Below, piece by piece: positions 3,364-21,577 of a stretch of 22,008 nt of DNA. The notes under the pieces were generated by a model. That model did not search any database. It was given only the letters and a program-made list of their open reading frames with translations, and had not been told where the DNA came from. Location of the stretch: positions 1 through 22,008 of IMG/VR virus record IMGVR_UViG_3300042556_001351; one strand, written 5' to 3'. The position numbers and the translations under genes are program-made. Origin of the DNA: a virus. Every line of letters starts with the position of its first letter. The stretch's first letter is position 1.

Positions 3364-3504
3364 ATGAAAAAAATAGATTTCTCACTCGTCGCAGAAGTGA
3401 CTGGCGTAGCATTAGCAACCACAGGAATCGCAATGCTCTCATTGCCGATCGCATTAATTACACTAGGAACATTTCTAGTATGGATAACAGAAAAGGCTAA
3501 CTGA
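3364..3504 (+). CDS. Small membrane protein between terminase and portal
   Basis: This short gene encodes 46 residues starting MKKIDFSLVAEV. Residues about 13-41 are strongly hydrophobic, with a Pro at 28 that could kink one helix or make a hairpin, and a short charged tail EKAN. It has a good ribosome binding site (AGGAG at 3356-3360) and its TGA overlaps the ATG of the portal gene by one base, so it fits the operon spacing exactly. The function is unknown. A membrane-tethering or accessory role is possible but not shown. Confidence 0.65.
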   Translation: MKKIDFSLVAEVTGVALATTGIAMLSLPIALITLGTFLVWITEKAN

Positions 3505-4901
3505 TGAGTCTATCGAAGCGAATCAAAGCAGCAGAGCAGAAGCGCGTCAACACTAACCAAAGCCAATGGGTCGAACCACTTATCCCAGGACGCCCTGCTT
3601 TCATGGCCCCATCTGGAATCGATGTAAACGCAGACTCCGCAATTCGCATGTCGACAGTTTATGCATGCGTGCGATTGCTCGGCGATACGATTTCCTCTTT
3701 ACCACTTGCAGCCTACGTGCGACGCGGAAGAAACAGAATCTCATACGCTAACGTTTACGGAGAGCAACCAGCCTGGATCAACAAACCAAATCCAGAGGCA
3801 TCACGCCTAGAATTTTACGAGCAGATAATCGCTTCGCTTAACATTCATGGAAACGCTTTCATTCTTACAGTCCGCGACGACATGGACGAAGTACAAGAGG
3901 TCTACTGCATTCACCCGGACGACGTTCGCATTGAACGCCCACGTCCAGGAGAACCAATCATCTACAAGATGAAAGACCCAGAAGGAACCTTCTCGCGCAT
4001 TTTGACGTCACGCGATATGAAACACATTCCACTCTTCAGACTTCCTGGATCCCTTTACGGCCTCGGCCCAATCGGAGCAGCTCGACTCACAATCGGCGCA
4101 GCGATGGCAGCAGACACATACGCAGCCGCATACTTTGGCAACGCAGCAAACCCAGGCGGCGTCATTGAAGTGCCGGGCGAATTAACAGAAGAGCAGGCAG
4201 GCGACATCGGCCGCGATTGGAACATCACCCACACAGGGCCGTACCGCGCAGGCAAGATCGGAATCCTTTCAGGCGGCGCACAATTTAGACCGCTGACACT
4301 TAACGCAGCAGACGCGCAGCTCTTAGAAGCCAGAAGATTCAACGTCGAAGACATTGCCAGATTATTCAGAGTGCCAATCAGCCTGCTAGGACACCCAGTA
4401 GCAGGAGCGATGTCATTCGCCAGCGTTGAAGCGCAGAACCTTTCATTCGTGCAGCATTCACTTCGCCCATTATTGGAACGAATCGAACAATCAATGTCCG
4501 AATTACTTCCAGAGCCGGACGGCTTCATCAAATTTAATCTTGACGCATTGCTTCGAGGAACCACACTCGAGCGCTTCGACGCCTACACGAAGGGCCTTCG
4601 CGAAGGATTCCTATCATTAAATGACGTGCGAGCCGTCGAAGATTTAGCGCCACTCGGCGACGCCGGAGATCAATTCAGAGTGCCACTCCAGAACATCGAC
4701 GCATCAGATGCGCCAGATGTAGGACTCAAACTTCGAGCAGAGATCGCGGCGATGTTGATCCAGGTCGGCTTTGATCCAAAGGCCGTAACAGAAGCCGTCG
4801 GATTACCAGAGATGACCCACACAGGCCTACCTTCAACCCAGCTGCAACAGATCTCCACAATTGACCCAGGAGATCCAGCTTCAGTATATGAGGTCAAATA
4901 A
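3504..4901 (+). CDS. Portal protein, HK97 family
   Basis: This 465-residue protein forms the dodecameric ring at the capsid vertex through which DNA enters and leaves and to which the tail attaches. Typical HK97-portal features are the early segment STVYACVRLLGDTISSLPL around residues 50-68, the SLNIHGNAFIL region near 112-123, and the helical core around GLGPIGAARLTIGAAMAADTYAAAYFG. The C-terminal part is polar and variable, as is usual. The length is slightly above the roughly 420 residues of HK97 gp3. It lies directly between the terminase and protease genes, as expected. Confidence 0.93.
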   Translation: MSLSKRIKAAEQKRVNTNQSQWVEPLIPGRPAFMAPSGIDVNADSAIRMSTVYACVRLLGDTISSLPLAAYVRRGRNRISYANVYGEQPAWINKPNPEASRLEFYEQIIASLNIHGNAFILTVRDDMDEVQEVYCIHPDDVRIERPRPGEPIIYKMKDPEGTFSRILTSRDMKHIPLFRLPGSLYGLGPIGAARLTIGAAMAADTYAAAYFGNAANPGGVIEVPGELTEEQAGDIGRDWNITHTGPYRAGKIGILSGGAQFRPLTLNAADAQLLEARRFNVEDIARLFRVPISLLGHPVAGAMSFASVEAQNLSFVQHSLRPLLERIEQSMSELLPEPDGFIKFNLDALLRGTTLERFDAYTKGLREGFLSLNDVRAVEDLAPLGDAGDQFRVPLQNIDASDAPDVGLKLRAEIAAMLIQVGFDPKAVTEAVGLPEMTHTGLPSTQLQQISTIDPGDPASVYEVK

Positions 4902-6629
4902 ATGCCTTATTTCATAAGCGACAAGCAGAGCGACTGCGCAGGATGGGCAACCGTTAAAGAAGAAGCAGACGGCACATACACCACAATCGGATGCCACGAA
5001 AATAAGCAGGATGCAATTGACCAGATGGTGGCCACTTCGATCGCAGAAGAGATGCAGCCAGGCGGAGAAGTAAGCAAGCGGCAACTTCCCGACAATTACA
5101 GGCCAGCACTTTCAGAAGATGTACCAGAAGGAAGAGCATGCGGAAATTGTTTCTTCTACAATGAAGAAAAACAAAACACAGAAGGAACGAAAGCCTGGTG
5201 CGAGCGCTGGAATGATTATGTTGATGGAGCCTATTACTGCAACGCATGGCAATCAAAAACAGACAGCAGACAAGTAGACCTCAGCGTTCCAGAATTTATC
5301 CAAGCAAATGCAAAGCGTGGACTCCAGTATCTACGCGATGGACATGGCGGCGATGGGCTGACCGAAGGAACCAAGCGAGCAGCTCGCGACATGGCAGCAG
5401 GCAACATAACCGAAAACAAGATCAGGAAGATGGCCCCCTGGTTCGCAAGGCACAAAGTCGACGGCGAAGCGCCGAAGAACAGCAACCCATCCGATCCAGG
5501 ATACCCAGGCGCAGGATTAGTCGCCTGGCTTTTATGGGGCGGAGATTCAAACTTCAGCGACCGAGCACAAAACTGGGCGCAAAGGAAGATAGACGCACTC
5601 GACGCAGAAGAAGACTCAAGGAGCAAAATGACAAAGAAAATCGAACGCCGCACCTTTACGATCAAGAACGTAGAGGCACGCCAGGCAGAAGACGGAACCA
5701 TGCGCCTCTCAGGATACGCCGCCGTCTTCAATAACGACAGCGTGCCGCTTCCATTCATCGAAAGAATCGCACCCGGCGCATTCAGAAAGACCCTGGCGGA
5801 AACACCAGATGTACGCCTCTTGATCAATCACGAAGGCCTACCATTGGCACGCACGAAGAACGGAACCCTTCGCCTTAAAGAAGACGAAGCCGGACTTTAC
5901 ATGGACGCCGATCTACCAGACACCCAGGCAGCTCGCGACCTTTACACCCTGGTCGAGCGCGGCGACGTTGACCAGATGAGCTTCGCATTCCGAGTGATCC
6001 GCCAGAAATGGAACGATATGAGAACCGAGCGCACCCTTACAGAATTATCACTTGCAGATGGCGACGTTTCAGTCGTGACTTACCCGGCCTATCCAACCAC
6101 CACAGTAGAAGCCAGGGAACAATTAAAGGCAGCGATGCAAGCAGTCAAAGAAGGACGCGACATTAGTCCAGAAACGAAGATAGTTCTAGAAAATATTTTC
6201 TCCGATCTTTCAGAAGGCCACGAATACATTATGAAAGCAGCGCAGATTATGGCTGAATTTATGGCGATGGAAGATTCCACATACATGGACGAAGAAGAGG
6301 ATCGCGCAGTCGACACAGTCGGCAGCTTCGTATCCTGGGATTCTTCAGGCGGCACAGCACGCGGAAAGATTGAACGAGTTGTCCGCGAAGGCTCTCTCAA
6401 TGTTCCAGAAACAGATTTCACCATCAATGCAGAAGAAGACGATCCTGCTGTTTTGATTCGCCTCTATCGCGAATTGCGAGATGGCTACGTTGCGACCGAC
6501 ACATTGGTAGGACACAAGGCATCAACACTCACACTGATCGATGCGCTACCAGAACCAAGTCCAGAAGAAGAATCAGAGCGCAAGATTTCCCTGCGCCTTG
6601 CGCAAGCAATCGTCAACAATACAATCTAG
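4902..6629 (+). CDS. Multidomain prohead maturation protease
   Basis: This 575-residue protein carries the HK97-type prohead serine protease that removes the capsid scaffold domain, embedded in a longer chain. In order: residues 1-60, a DCAGWATVK-type small domain seen in phage morphogenesis proteins; 78-118, four cysteines (C80, C83, C100, C113) spaced like a high-potential iron-sulfur protein; 128-235, a helical domain with ARDMAAG, ARHKVD, PGYPGAG and AWLLWGGD; about 245-410, the protease, with H310 (LINHEG) and S360 (QMSFAF) as probable catalytic residues; 473-548, a small beta domain starting VGSFVSWDSSGG that resembles Tudor/SH3-like folds. A ribosome-binding-site-like AGGAG precedes an in-frame ATG at 5628, so a shorter protease of 333 residues may also be made. 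The protease identity is secure; the roles of the flanking domains are unknown. Confidence 0.88.
   Translation: MPYFISDKQSDCAGWATVKEEADGTYTTIGCHENKQDAIDQMVATSIAEEMQPGGEVSKRQLPDNYRPALSEDVPEGRACGNCFFYNEEKQNTEGTKAWCERWNDYVDGAYYCNAWQSKTDSRQVDLSVPEFIQANAKRGLQYLRDGHGGDGLTEGTKRAARDMAAGNITENKIRKMAPWFARHKVDGEAPKNSNPSDPGYPGAGLVAWLLWGGDSNFSDRAQNWAQRKIDALDAEEDSRSKMTKKIERRTFTIKNVEARQAEDGTMRLSGYAAVFNNDSVPLPFIERIAPGAFRKTLAETPDVRLLINHEGLPLARTKNGTLRLKEDEAGLYMDADLPDTQAARDLYTLVERGDVDQMSFAFRVIRQKWNDMRTERTLTELSLADGDVSVVTYPAYPTTTVEAREQLKAAMQAVKEGRDISPETKIVLENIFSDLSEGHEYIMKAAQIMAEFMAMEDSTYMDEEEDRAVDTVGSFVSWDSSGGTARGKIERVVREGSLNVPETDFTINAEEDDPAVLIRLYRELRDGYVATDTLVGHKASTLTLIDALPEPSPEEESERKISLRLAQAIVNNTI
5618..5630 (+). 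promoter_or_regulatory. Possible internal ribosome binding site and start
   Basis: An AAGGAG lies 4 bases upstream of the in-frame ATG at 5628-5630, which is codon 243 of the protease gene. It sits exactly at the boundary before the HK97 protease domain, where ordinary protease genes begin. Initiation here would give a 333-residue product without the Cys4 and helical domains. The spacing is a little short, so efficiency is uncertain. Confidence 0.45.
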
Positions 6630-6742: not shown

Positions 6743-8095
6743 ATGTCAAAGTCTTTCCTTGATAAGTTGATCGAGCGTCGTGATGCAGTCAAGTCAGAGA
6801 TGGACGCAGTTCTCGAAGCAGTAGCAGAAGAGAACCGCACTGACCTCACAGCAGAGGAAACCACAAAGGTGGATACACTCGTAGAAGAATCACGATCACT
6901 CGATACAAAAATCGAAAAGATGAAAGCGCAAGCAGATGCAGATGCAAAGGCATCAGAAATCCGCTCAGCAGTATCAGATGTCGCAATGCCACGCACTACA
7001 GGCAGCGCAACAGTTACACGCGAAGAGCGCACATACTCACCAGCATCAGATGCATCATTCGTAAAGGATGCATTTAACGCACAGTTCGCAAACGACTACT
7101 CAGCAAACGAGCGCCTCGCACGTCACATGCGTGAAGAGTCAATCGAGCGCCGCGATGTCGGAACCGCACAATTCGAAGGTCTTGTAATTCCACAATACCT
7201 CGTCGACCTTGCAGCTCCATTCGCACGCGCAGGACGTCCGTTCGCAGACTTCGCGACAAACAAGATGGCACTTCCACCAAGTGGAATGACCCTGAATATT
7301 TCTCGCATGACGACCGGAAGTTCGACTGCGGTACAAGTTACACAGAACGATGCAATCTCAGAAACAGATGTGGATGACACACTGCTCACGATTAATGTTC
7401 GTACAATCGCAGGCCAGCAAGATATTTCTCGCCAGGCAATCGAGCGCGGAACAGGCATCGACACATTCGTAATCGCTGACTTGATCAAGTCATGGCACAC
7501 AACACTCGACTCACAGATCCTCAATGGCGCAGGCACAGCCGGCACAATCAAGGGCCTTCGTGCATCAGGTGGCAACGCCGTAACATTCACATCAACAGCA
7601 CCAACAGTCGGATTGCTTTATCCAAAGCTTGCTGACGCGATCGCACAAATCCAGACAAACGCATTCGTTTCACCTACACACTGGGTACTTCACCCACGTC
7701 GCCTCGCTTTCTTGCTAGCAGCAGTGGACAGCACAAACCGTCCGCTTGTTGTTCCAGCAGCAAACGCACCGATGAACGCAGTAGGAGTTGGCGGAGCGCC
7801 AATCTACGGAAACTCCGGATACCAGATGCTCGGACTTCCAATCATCACCGATGCAAACATCGGAACAACATACGGAACAACAACAAACCAGGATGAGATT
7901 TATTGCGTATCAGCAAACGAATCACACCTCTGGGAGCAGCCAGGATCACCGTTCGCCCTTCGCTTCGATGCAACAGGCGCCGGAAACCTCACACTCAAGT
8001 CTGTCGTTTACGGCTACGCCGCATACACAGCAGAGCGCTACCCACTTGCAGCCTCGATCATTTCAGGCACAGGACTAGCAGCTCCAACCTTCTAA
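6743..8095 (+). CDS. Major capsid protein, HK97 fold
   Basis: This 450-residue protein is the main shell subunit. Residues 1 to about 80 form a charged heptad-like coiled coil (DKLIERRDAV, then ETTKVDTLVEESRSLDTKIEKM), the delta/scaffold domain normally removed by the prohead protease. The following linker (about 80-115) probably contains the cleavage site. The rest has the HK97-type core, including GLVIPQYLVDLAAPFARAGR, a long loop region, and the SWHTTLDSQILNGAGTAGTIKG and THWVLHPRRLAFL segments. A strong AAGGAG lies before the ATG. A 113-base leader and a downstream terminator isolate the gene, consistent with high expression as its own transcript. Confidence 0.95.
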   Translation: MSKSFLDKLIERRDAVKSEMDAVLEAVAEENRTDLTAEETTKVDTLVEESRSLDTKIEKMKAQADADAKASEIRSAVSDVAMPRTTGSATVTREERTYSPASDASFVKDAFNAQFANDYSANERLARHMREESIERRDVGTAQFEGLVIPQYLVDLAAPFARAGRPFADFATNKMALPPSGMTLNISRMTTGSSTAVQVTQNDAISETDVDDTLLTINVRTIAGQQDISRQAIERGTGIDTFVIADLIKSWHTTLDSQILNGAGTAGTIKGLRASGGNAVTFTSTAPTVGLLYPKLADAIAQIQTNAFVSPTHWVLHPRRLAFLLAAVDSTNRPLVVPAANAPMNAVGVGGAPIYGNSGYQMLGLPIITDANIGTTYGTTTNQDEIYCVSANESHLWEQPGSPFALRFDATGAGNLTLKSVVYGYAAYTAERYPLAASIISGTGLAAPTF

Positions 8096-8115: not shown

Positions 8116-8158
8116 GTGCAGGGCGAGTGGCCCACCCCCCGAGTCACTCGCCCTGCAC
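8116..8158 (+). terminator. Strong hairpin terminator after the capsid gene
   Basis: A perfect 14-bp inverted repeat, 8116-8129 (GTGCAGGGCGAGTG) with 8145-8158, encloses a 15-base C-rich loop. It lies 21 bases after the capsid stop. Only two T residues follow, so it is a T-poor hairpin of a kind accepted as a terminator in GC-richer bacteria, or a transcript-end stabiliser. The GTG inside it is in frame with the next gene but has no ribosome binding site and is rejected as a start. Confidence 0.75.
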
Positions 8159-8178
8159 TTCTAAACAGGGGGAAACAA

Positions 8179-8862
8179 ATGAAGACAGGACACAAAGTAA
8201 CAATCGGCTCGTGCGATCCCGGATCCGTAAATGGATCCTTCGCTTTCAGATTAATACAGCTCGCGCAAGCAAGGAGCAGCAGACTAGGGCCATTCGTAAG
8301 AATTAAAGGCTCTGGACTTTTATCCAAGCAGCGCAACCGAGTGGTGAAACAATTTCTAGATAACACAGACAGCGACTGGCTTCTGATGTTGGACTCAGAT
8401 GAACAGATCACCGTTCCAGCATTTGACGCCTTGATCGACACAGCCCATGACAAAGAGCGGCCAATCGTCGCAGGCCTTGTCTTTGCAGGATTTGGAGTGC
8501 CAGGCAAGCCTTACCCAAAGCCAGTCCCGGCGATATTCCAGGACTCAGAGAAGGGCTTCCTTCCACTTTACAAATACGACAAGAACGCAGTCTTCGAAAT
8601 TGACGCAGCAGGAACAGGATGCCTGCTCGTTCACCGAAGCGTTCTGGAGAAGATGCGCGAAGTGGCAGATCCAAACCAGGGCAAAGAATGGTGCTGGTTC
8701 TGGGATGGGCCAGTAAACGGAGAATGGATCGGCGAGGATTTATTATTCTGCCGAAGGGCAAAGTCGCTCGGATTCAAGATCCACGTAAACACCGCCGCGA
8801 TATTGCCACACCAGAAGAGCTTCTGGATGGAAGAGATTCATCATGATATTTGGAAAGATTAA
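8179..8862 (+). CDS. Glycosyltransferase, GT-A/GT2-like, within head genes
   Basis: This 227-residue protein probably transfers a sugar from a nucleotide-sugar donor. It shows the GT-A pattern: an early beta strand VTIGSCDPGSV, a helix LLSKQRNRVVKQFL, then DWLLMLDSDEQI with the metal-binding D72-S73-D74. The later EIDAAGTGCLLVHRSVLEKM and NGEWIGEDLLFCRRAKSLGFKIHVN resemble the acceptor-site part of family 2 enzymes. The start chosen is the ATG at 8179, preceded by AGGGGGAAA (8167-8175); an in-frame GTG further up lies in the terminator. Its place between capsid and connector genes suggests that a virion protein is the acceptor, but that is inference. The donor and acceptor are unknown. Confidence 0.75.
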   Translation: MKTGHKVTIGSCDPGSVNGSFAFRLIQLAQARSSRLGPFVRIKGSGLLSKQRNRVVKQFLDNTDSDWLLMLDSDEQITVPAFDALIDTAHDKERPIVAGLVFAGFGVPGKPYPKPVPAIFQDSEKGFLPLYKYDKNAVFEIDAAGTGCLLVHRSVLEKMREVADPNQGKEWCWFWDGPVNGEWIGEDLLFCRRAKSLGFKIHVNTAAILPHQKSFWMEEIHHDIWKD

Positions 8863-17739: not shown

Positions 17740-18327
17740 ATGAAACTAAACGACATAGTGGAAACCATTATTGTTAAGAACTTAAAGCGCAGAGATGATC
17801 GCCTTGAAGCTATAAGTAAACAGCTTGATGCTTTAGGTATAAATTGGATCAGATTTGATGTTATTGATCATCAAGGAACAAGAGCCAGCGCAACCTGGTG
17901 GAATGCCTTCAACGGACTTCAAGCCATCAGATATGCAAAACATGCAAAATTACCTTGTGTTTTAATTCTTGACGATGACTGCCTCTTCGTGGATGACTTT
18001 GCAGAAAGATTCGAAGAACTCTGGCCTCACATTCCACCGGATTGGGATTATGTTTCTTTCGGAGAAATCTTCGGTGATAAAAAAGAGATTTATCCAGGAA
18101 TCGTGGAAAGCCAAAATAGCTGGGGCGGTCACGCGAGCCTTGTTCGTGACACTCTCTATGATTTATTCTTAGAAAATATTGATGGTTCAGAATTTGCAGA
18201 TGAACAGATGAATCGCAAGATTAAACCTCACGCAAAATGTTATGTTTTCTCGCCTTACTTGATAACGCAAGCGGCAGGCTTTTCAGATCATTCAGGGGAT
18301 TATGCAACAAATCACTTGTTCGATTAA
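17740..18327 (+). CDS. Glycosyltransferase, GT25-like
   Basis: This 195-residue protein resembles family 25 (LPS/collagen-type) glycosyltransferases: an N-terminal VKNLKRRDDRLEAISKQLDAL segment, then the metal-binding acidic triplet D78-D79-D80 in VLILDDDCLF, and GGHASLVRDTLYDLF. It is shorter than typical family members by some tens of residues. The ATG directly follows the previous stop. The gene is clearly AT-richer than most of the window (17761-17820 has 21 of 60 G+C by hand count), suggesting acquisition with the receptor-binding genes. It could glycosylate tail proteins or alter the host surface; no acceptor is evident. Confidence 0.65.
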   Translation: MKLNDIVETIIVKNLKRRDDRLEAISKQLDALGINWIRFDVIDHQGTRASATWWNAFNGLQAIRYAKHAKLPCVLILDDDCLFVDDFAERFEELWPHIPPDWDYVSFGEIFGDKKEIYPGIVESQNSWGGHASLVRDTLYDLFLENIDGSEFADEQMNRKIKPHAKCYVFSPYLITQAAGFSDHSGDYATNHLFD

Positions 18328-19926: not shown

Positions 19927-20193
19927 ATGAATCGGGGGGAAATTCTTCAAGAAGCAGCTCGACTCACAGCCAAAGATCGCCAGAAGATATACGGCGATCC
20001 AAGAACCAACCACTGCCGTATTGCAGACTTATGGACGATATATCTTGAGCACGAAGTAACACCGCAGCAGGCAGCGATCTGCATGGCGCTAGTCAAAGTC
20101 GCCCGATTGATGGAAACAGAAACCCTAGACTCCTTCGTAGATTTAGCGGCCTACGCCTGCATTGCTGGCGAGATTGCGACATGGCACGAATGA
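19927..20193 (+). CDS. Conserved phage protein, DUF6378-like
   Basis: This 88-residue protein has EILQEAARLTAKDRQKIYGDPRTNH, RIADLWTIYL, TPQQAAICMALVKVARL and DSFVDLAAYACIAGEI, which match a small phage family I recall as DUF6378, of unestablished function; its helical bundle has been likened to nucleotide-processing folds. The first codons after the ATG at 19927 include a GGGGGG run that looks like a misplaced ribosome binding site, so a downstream non-ATG start cannot be fully excluded. It overlaps the next glycosyltransferase gene by 13 bases. Confidence 0.7.
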   Translation: MNRGEILQEAARLTAKDRQKIYGDPRTNHCRIADLWTIYLEHEVTPQQAAICMALVKVARLMETETLDSFVDLAAYACIAGEIATWHE

Positions 20194-20867
20194 AAGAGAT
20201 GATCATCCTCGTACCAACCAGAGGACGCCCACGCAACGCAGTGGAACTATTGGCAGAGCACGACAAACTTTCCACACATTCGGACATCATCTTCGTCATT
20301 GACGCAAACGATCCAGAGCACGATGCCTACGAATACGAAGTAGGCGCAGACAAGTGCATGACGATCGAGAACGAAACCCGGGGCATGGCATACCCAATCA
20401 ACAAGGCAGCGAGCGCCATCGTAAAGAAGGGCGAATATAAATACTTCGCCTTCCTCGGCGATGACCACCGCCCACGCACCGCCGGGTGGGATTCACTTCT
20501 TATCCAGGCGATGCAGAAGCGACCGTCGATGGCCTACGGCAACGACTTGCTACAGAAGGAACGACTTCCAACCATGATCGCGATGACCTCGGACATCGTC
20601 AAAGCGCTCGATGGAATGGTTCCGCCAAAGATGAAACATTTATACCTTGATAACTTCTGGAAGAAACTAGGCCAGGATTTAGGAGCACTCACCTATCTCG
20701 ATCACGTGATCGTTGAGCACATGCATCCGATGGCAGGCAAAGCGGAATGGGATGAGGGATACAAGGAAGTCAACGCGACCGAAATATATTCATTCGACGC
20801 GCTCGCCTACCAGAACTACATTCAAAGCGAAGCCTACGAATTGCTCAGGCGCAAATTAAAGCCATGA
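20181..20867 (+). CDS. Glycosyltransferase-like protein, GT-A fold
   Basis: This 228-residue protein starts MARMKEMIILVPTRGRPRNAVELL, the classic first strand and loop of family 2-type glycosyltransferases, followed by DIIFVIDANDPEHDAY, and then FAFLGDDHRPRTAGWD with the acidic pair D94-D95 at the metal site. The C-terminal half (KKLGQDLGALTYLDHVIVEHMHP) is typical of the acceptor side. It starts within the preceding gene and ends in an ATGA junction with the next glycosyltransferase, so the two are translated together. Donor sugar and acceptor are unknown. Confidence 0.75.
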   Translation: MARMKEMIILVPTRGRPRNAVELLAEHDKLSTHSDIIFVIDANDPEHDAYEYEVGADKCMTIENETRGMAYPINKAASAIVKKGEYKYFAFLGDDHRPRTAGWDSLLIQAMQKRPSMAYGNDLLQKERLPTMIAMTSDIVKALDGMVPPKMKHLYLDNFWKKLGQDLGALTYLDHVIVEHMHPMAGKAEWDEGYKEVNATEIYSFDALAYQNYIQSEAYELLRRKLKP

Positions 20868-21577
20868 AGCAGCTCATCGCTTACTCTTTATACGGCAGCG
20901 AAGAGCGATACACGATCGGCGCGATCAAGAACGCAATTCTGGCGACCAGGCACTTCAAAGGATTCACCCTGCGCTTCTACACCGGGGCCAGCGTTCCAGA
21001 ATCAATCAAGCAAACCCTTCAGCTCTTCCCCCACGTGCAGCTCGTAGACCAGCCAGGGCCAGAAGACCACACAGCCAAACTCTGGAGATTTCAGGCTTTG
21101 GCAGACCAGGACTTCGACGTCGTTCTCAGCCGCGACGCAGACGCCAGGCTAACGCACCGGGAACGGATTGCGCACGAAGAGTTTCTAGCAAGCGGCCTCG
21201 ATTTCCACATTATGAAAGACCACCCCACAGGCCACAATTACCAGATCAGCGCCGGCATGTTTGCAGCTCGTACCTGGGCAATCCCGGCCGATTTGACGCC
21301 CCCAGAAGGCCAGAATTACTACACGCAAGACCAAGACTGGCTGGCGGCCCACATTTGGCCATTAATTAAGGACAGCACCCTGATCCACGATGAGAGCTAC
21401 CAAACCCCCACAGAAGGCCACAGCAAGCGCCGCCCATTCCCGATCGGCAAGAAGGCAACCCTGCACCACATAGGGGCGGCTTTGGAAGCAGACGACCGCT
21501 TCGTTTTCAGCATTGACCAGGCGATGGCAAAGGCCGAATCAGGAAGCGACAAATACCTGGCAGAATGGCTCATATGA
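20864..21577 (+). CDS. Glycosyltransferase-like protein with DAD motif
   Basis: This 237-residue protein starts MKQLIAYSLYGSEERYTIGAIKNAILA, continues with FTLRFYTGASVPESI, and then DFDVVLSRDADARLTHRE, where D91-A92-D93 is a DxD metal site. AGMFAARTWAIP follows, like the acceptor region of GT-A enzymes of the GT8/GT32-like kind. TQDQDWLAAHIWPL and LHHIGAALEADD near the end are plausible donor-site elements. It overlaps its neighbours by 4 bases on both sides in ATGA junctions. The exact family is uncertain; a sugar transfer role is the best reading. Confidence 0.7.
   Translation: MKQLIAYSLYGSEERYTIGAIKNAILATRHFKGFTLRFYTGASVPESIKQTLQLFPHVQLVDQPGPEDHTAKLWRFQALADQDFDVVLSRDADARLTHRERIAHEEFLASGLDFHIMKDHPTGHNYQISAGMFAARTWAIPADLTPPEGQNYYTQDQDWLAAHIWPLIKDSTLIHDESYQTPTEGHSKRRPFPIGKKATLHHIGAALEADDRFVFSIDQAMAKAESGSDKYLAEWLI

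Follow-up and report, generated by a model that had tools for sequence, protein, structure and literature searches.

To our knowledge, iron-sulfur sites in phage structural proteins have been described mainly in tail hubs, and in 2013 Tam reportedly found a [4Fe-4S] cluster in a lambda gpL-type tail-tip protein. Tail-tip or hub proteins of the lambda gpL type and the hub of RcGTA hold an iron-sulfur site with four cysteines (PMC7296036). High-potential iron-sulfur proteins (HiPIPs; PF01355) are free periplasmic electron carriers exported by the Tat pathway, and they gain their cluster in the cytoplasm before export (PMC7462912). One of them, the 54-residue PioC, has its cysteines at positions 22, 25, 34 and 47, lacks clear secondary structure and seems to fold under the influence of its cluster (PMC7462912). 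Closer to the capsid, a gene of the Actinomycetia phage DSL-LC01 (OQ999401) that adjoins capsid maturation protease genes is annotated ‘high potential iron-sulfur protein’ (WJZ48512); we set this annotation aside as evidence, as the protein had no Pfam match on scanning. A literature search for HiPIPs or iron-sulfur sites together with prohead proteases, capsids or phages brought up nothing on a capsid protease.

The stretch of DNA analysed here (the window), 22,008 bases long, comprises one IMG/VR virus record. At 4902-6629 on the plus strand, as are the portal and capsid genes described next, it holds an open reading frame for a head maturation (prohead) protease of 575 residues with accessory domains. 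This gene follows the portal gene (3504-4901; PF04860, E 3.8e-84) without a gap and lies upstream of the gene for an HK97-fold major capsid protein (6743-8095; PF05065, E 7e-14; PHROG 2263, major head protein), its presumed substrate. The NCBIfam model proheadase_HK97 matches the protein, as does PHROG 80 over residues 1-436 (E 3e-93), and Pfam Peptidase_S78 matches residues 256-407 (5667-6122) at E 1.4e-43, with 149 bits against a cut-off of 21. In its catalytic domain, its portal-protease-capsid gene order and its conserved histidine and serine (H310, invariant, and S360, near-invariant), the protein resembles the HK97 family of prohead proteases (S78, PF04586, TIGR01543, PHROG 80). Foldseek matched the T4 gp21 protease (E 1e-4), and a phmmer search of the whole protein against the PDB returned no match. 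Cleavage of the capsid protein is presumed from the conservation of His310 and Ser360.

Unlike the family at large, the protein carries extra N-terminal domains and a C-terminal Tudor-like domain. The first-pass annotation had described a five-part protein with some 240 residues ahead of the protease, and both descriptions hold for this reading frame. A small N-terminal domain (residues 1-56; 4902-5069) is predicted as a confident AlphaFold block (pLDDT 80-88); its C12 and C31 are invariant, but they belong to this domain and not to the four-cysteine (Cys4) module that follows. The Cys4 module itself occupies residues 59-121 (5076-5264), a region that the PHROG 80 profile already spans; the Pfam and NCBIfam matches for this protease bring no cluster-binding annotation to it. 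Next comes a helical domain (residues ~125-240; 5274-5621; pLDDT mostly 83-91) with similarity to PHROG 2859, which also occurs in other phage head and portal proteins; the first-pass annotation had linked it to other phage morphogenesis proteins. Behind the S78 domain lies the Hva1_TUDOR-like domain (PF11160) at residues 474-520 (6321-6461), which scored E 1.7e-7 in the whole protein and E 8.8e-9 as a fragment. In relatives this last domain takes other positions, standing N-terminally or occurring twice.

The annotation had also placed cysteines at C80, C83, C100 and C113, spaced x2, x16 and x12, and the reading frame bears this out. We searched IMG/VR with the protein, keeping the best 80 of 369 related stretches, and with the module, which gave at least 574 and at least 583 confirmed matches in two scans. 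All 130 distinct homologous modules, drawn from viral and metagenome-assembled (MAG) contigs, show the pattern C-x2-C-x(15/16/18)-C-x12-C-x2-W without exception, covering the first predicted ligand pair C80-x2-C83 (5139-5150), the third cysteine C100 (5199-5201) and the segment Y112-C113-N-A-W116 around the fourth (5235-5249). The tyrosine before the fourth cysteine and the tryptophan three residues after it are likewise present in all 130; a phenylalanine two residues after the second cysteine is found in 127 and an upstream tyrosine in 128. Even a looser version of the motif turned up in just one of 13,000 shuffled modules and in four of 1,990 other reading frames, all four on the minus strand. 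The Cys4 pattern is not a product of chance. Across 84 modules with identity to the window's module down to 50%, 18 columns are invariant, which indicates strong selection on the domain itself. Ordinary disulfide bonding of the four cysteines was considered and judged unlikely, on general grounds, in a protein assembled in the cytoplasm.

The same annotation had likened this spacing to that of HiPIPs, a likeness that extends beyond spacing. The order C-x2-C followed by C-x12/13-C is that of HiPIPs in all 130 modules, the last two cysteines of PioC are also 12 apart (PMC7462912), and module and HiPIPs (PioC, 1hpi, 3h31 and 1isu) share a core of ~50-65 residues and the upstream conserved tyrosine. 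Aromatic residues directly before the fourth cysteine and two or three positions after it are a well conserved feature of HiPIPs (PioC NMR paper, PMC7462912), a hallmark matched by the invariant tyrosine and tryptophan described above. The residue before the fourth cysteine is usually tryptophan in HiPIPs, and our sequence comparison found tyrosine there in 1isu and 3h31 too. The N-terminal sequence of the module (LPDNYRPA..DVPEG) is very unlike that of HiPIPs.

Profile comparisons agree with these residue-level likenesses. Aligned by hhalign with nine HiPIP sequences, taken from PDB alignments and plasmid records and from further sequences that matched PDB entries, the module profile reached a probability of 94.3% and a score of 40.2, figures whose E-values refer to a single pair and not to a database. 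Permuting the columns 300 times with the cysteines held fixed lowered the score to 12.5 ± 2.8 (s.d.; maximum 24.6), so the likeness lies beyond the cysteine spacing. Eleven of eleven sampled modules matched the Pfam HIPIP family (PF01355), whose curated cut-off is 22 bits. The window's own module scored ~9 bits (E about 2), below DUF7140, whereas seven modules more distant from the window's gave 16-25 bits; the only one over the cut-off belongs to relative L163, at 25.0 bits for the module alone, 23.3 in a genome scan and 18.5 within the full 603-residue protein. When two whole MAG assemblies were scanned with HIPIP, phage modules ranked first in both.

Structure-based searches lean the same way. 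A profile search of the PDB with the module returned a HiPIP (1hpi) as its top match and HiPIPs as 4 of its 11 matches (E 0.14-2.6), and Foldseek, run on an AlphaFold model of the module (pLDDT 64), placed HiPIPs at ranks 1, 2, 3 and 7 (E 3-7); VIA-align gave no Z of 2 or more. Confidence for the region, on which the annotation's test of whether the four cysteines come together depends, fell to pLDDT 36-58 in the full-length model. Such low values may reflect cluster-driven folding of the kind noted for PioC (PMC7462912). The profile search proposed earlier thus favours HiPIPs by family match and by profile-profile comparison, while no single database match is decisive and the window's own module scores low. 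Taken together, the tests of family, profile and hallmark residues support the original reading in part, as a relationship to HiPIPs at the level of the domain, and do so better than we had expected. They suggest, short of proof, that a capsid-assembly enzyme may hold an iron-sulfur cluster.

A structural Zn(II) ion is the main competitor for the four cysteines: the module would then be a zinc domain, derived from a HiPIP or convergent with it, that merely lends stability to one small domain of the enzyme. As a general matter, cytoplasmic and phage proteins often bind zinc through small domains of the Cys4 kind, a few members of the family have weak matches to Pfam zinc ribbons (DZR_2, Zn_ribbon_RRN7), and AlphaFold predicts no clear HiPIP fold for the module. 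Two closely spaced CxxC knuckles are usual in zinc ribbons, however, and the module has one, its second pair of cysteines lying 12 apart as in PioC. On the same sequences, zinc-ribbon families scored lower than HIPIP (a zinc-ribbon-like peptide, devised ad hoc, served as a crude positive control for the zinc families only), and rubredoxin and TFIIS, each represented by two sequences, gave hhalign scores of 10.0 and 11.4 against 40.2 for HiPIPs. With the flanking aromatics also matching HiPIPs, we regard zinc as unlikely, if the most serious of the alternatives.

A relationship to HiPIPs does not make the module a classical HiPIP. The protein begins MPYFISDKQSDC..., with no twin-arginine signal visible, and the module sits inside a phage capsid protease, so we describe it as HiPIP-like; classical HiPIPs are free, exported carriers, and the module is a domain of a phage capsid protein known from its sequence. 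An intracellular location is nonetheless plausible because HiPIPs themselves receive their cluster in the cytoplasm, ahead of Tat export (PMC7462912). The module differs in place from the lambda gpL-type and RcGTA sites, which belong to the tail hub, while here a cluster is predicted in a capsid protease.

The distribution of the module among relatives shows a unit that is present whole or missing altogether. Among the best 80 of the 369 related stretches, proteins have either a module with all four cysteines or a clean gap of 63 residues; most of those without the module keep the N-terminal domain, and in two further relatives both are missing. A tree built from the helical and protease domains requires at least four changes between presence and absence, at least three of them on well-supported branches. 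On this tree the sister of the window's protein is the module-less L029 (support 100/97), with which it shares 97% identity across the aligned protein and 98.9% over 1.5 kb of upstream DNA. We looked for the module as a separate gene on the contigs of eight relatives, six of which have a module-less protease; none of these six had it on their contigs, which are incomplete. Since close relatives, L029 included, do without it, the module is dispensable and not essential for maturation in this lineage: it is a swappable cassette outside catalysis, without which this protease can persist.

This pattern bears on a regulatory role for the module. The first-pass annotation had raised the prospect that assembly is tied to the state of the cell, and one version would have a redox-active HiPIP-type cluster switch the docking or activity of the protease in response to oxygen, nitric oxide or the redox state of the cell, and in this way couple maturation to the host. 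The conserved aromatics, which would shield a cluster, and the fusion of the module to a maturation enzyme in most carriers fit such a switch. The module is missing, though, from the nearest relative and from several sister lineages whose proteases are otherwise intact; the module also occurs on portals, where there is no protease to regulate; and the known iron-sulfur sites of tail hubs are four-cysteine clusters bound within a structural hub protein (PMC7296036). We consider a redox switch very improbable. We give just as little credence to a related scenario, in which aquatic actinobacterial phages recruited a HiPIP-type [4Fe-4S] domain that links maturation to host redox or iron supply and is swapped as need changes.

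Among the matches listed, which comprise 182 distinct reading frames (distinct sequences and not phages, as some loci repeat the same contig), the module lies upstream of an S78 protease in the same frame in 158, follows a protease of another family (PHROG 15531) in 6, ends a portal protein in 2 and forms part of a protease-capsid fusion in 1; in 15 it has only the N-terminal or helical domain as neighbours, at split genes or contig ends. In the loci read, all identified contexts are procapsid proteins, and the module is tied to them. The N-terminal, Tudor-like, Cys4 and helical domains occur in several orders among relatives.

Such reordering, with clean gain and loss, is what one would expect of a passive passenger: a linker or spacer domain, moved about by shuffling, that adds bulk and keeps its cysteines for folding only, with no part in assembly. 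Enrichment of R-[AQET] after an acidic linker at two kinds of seam between domains also fits (44 of 64 helical seams and 25 of 36 Tudor seams, against 70 of 240 interior windows). The enrichment is weaker at Cys4 seams (27 of 56) and absent at protease seams (14 of 55). Against a passenger stand the 18 invariant columns, a mark of strong selection on the domain, and the restriction to procapsid proteins, which suggests a role there; we find this account doubtful, and less credible than zinc.

We lean instead, with modest confidence, towards residues 59-121 being a HiPIP-related accessory domain whose four cysteines hold a metal centre, probably a [4Fe-4S] cluster, and which serves docking or assembly in the procapsid. 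What follows on the bound metal, the type of cluster and docking is inferred. The four cysteines would most likely hold one metal centre, gained, if it is a [4Fe-4S] cluster as is probable, while the protease folds in the host cytoplasm. The module would thus be a compact, cluster-stabilised unit on the non-catalytic side of procapsid proteins, and it may set the timing of assembly or else dock the protease (in other phages the portal or the protease-capsid fusion) into the procapsid. We favour a docking or assembly module since its carriers include proteases, portals and a protease-capsid fusion and it never lies within the catalytic domain. Should the cluster prove real, iron-sulfur chemistry would extend to the capsid-maturation machinery of tailed phages, and a HiPIP-like domain in a cytoplasmic phage protein would widen the known occurrence of the HiPIP fold. 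Natural pairs with and without the module, in which the protease is 97% identical, make its role directly testable.

The window's own locus and its relatives show further features of the domain architecture. Seams in the window's protein, L157, L120, L130 and others read as an acidic linker followed by R-[A/Q/E/T] (for example DEEEDR|AVDT, TDSR|QVDL and GGER|ALPD), and are possibly sites of self-processing or of shuffling. Relatives L120, L130, L171 and L173 carry another shuffled domain (PAPPKDQI..GSD...WA.ARVN.FLYLLRRG), which sits on portals or separates the Cys4 domain from the helical one and which in L173 overlaps a weak DUF5824 match. Other head proteins end, or nearly end, in a second, PioC-like motif, C-x2-C-x6/7-C-x12-C, seen in L171 (reading frame at 2731, residues ~450-480; 16.7 bits against HIPIP), in L263 (5501-5638) and in DSL-LC01, one of whose protease reading frames ends in C-x2-C-x7-C-x12-C; protease and module sequences of DSL-LC01 differ from those of the window.

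Small aquatic actinobacteria are the probable hosts, because a cultured relative, Pontimonas phage phiPsal1, shares the arrangement of the first four domains (44% identical across residues 1-436) and four of five GTDB genome matches fall in one Microbacteriaceae MAG assembly. L163, from a record titled as a Bacteroidetes MAG, has its module-bearing protease-capsid fusion on a Bacteroidetes-binned contig, which is probably a phage contig or mis-binned. Elsewhere in the window, glycosyltransferase-like reading frames are spread across the structural region (8116-8862, 17740-18327, 20181-20867 and 20864-21577), with Pfam support limited to two marginal matches, one GT25-like and one TET-associated (TAGT). 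At 73-1398, immediately upstream of the terminase genes, a ParB_N domain is fused to an N6/N4 DNA methylase.
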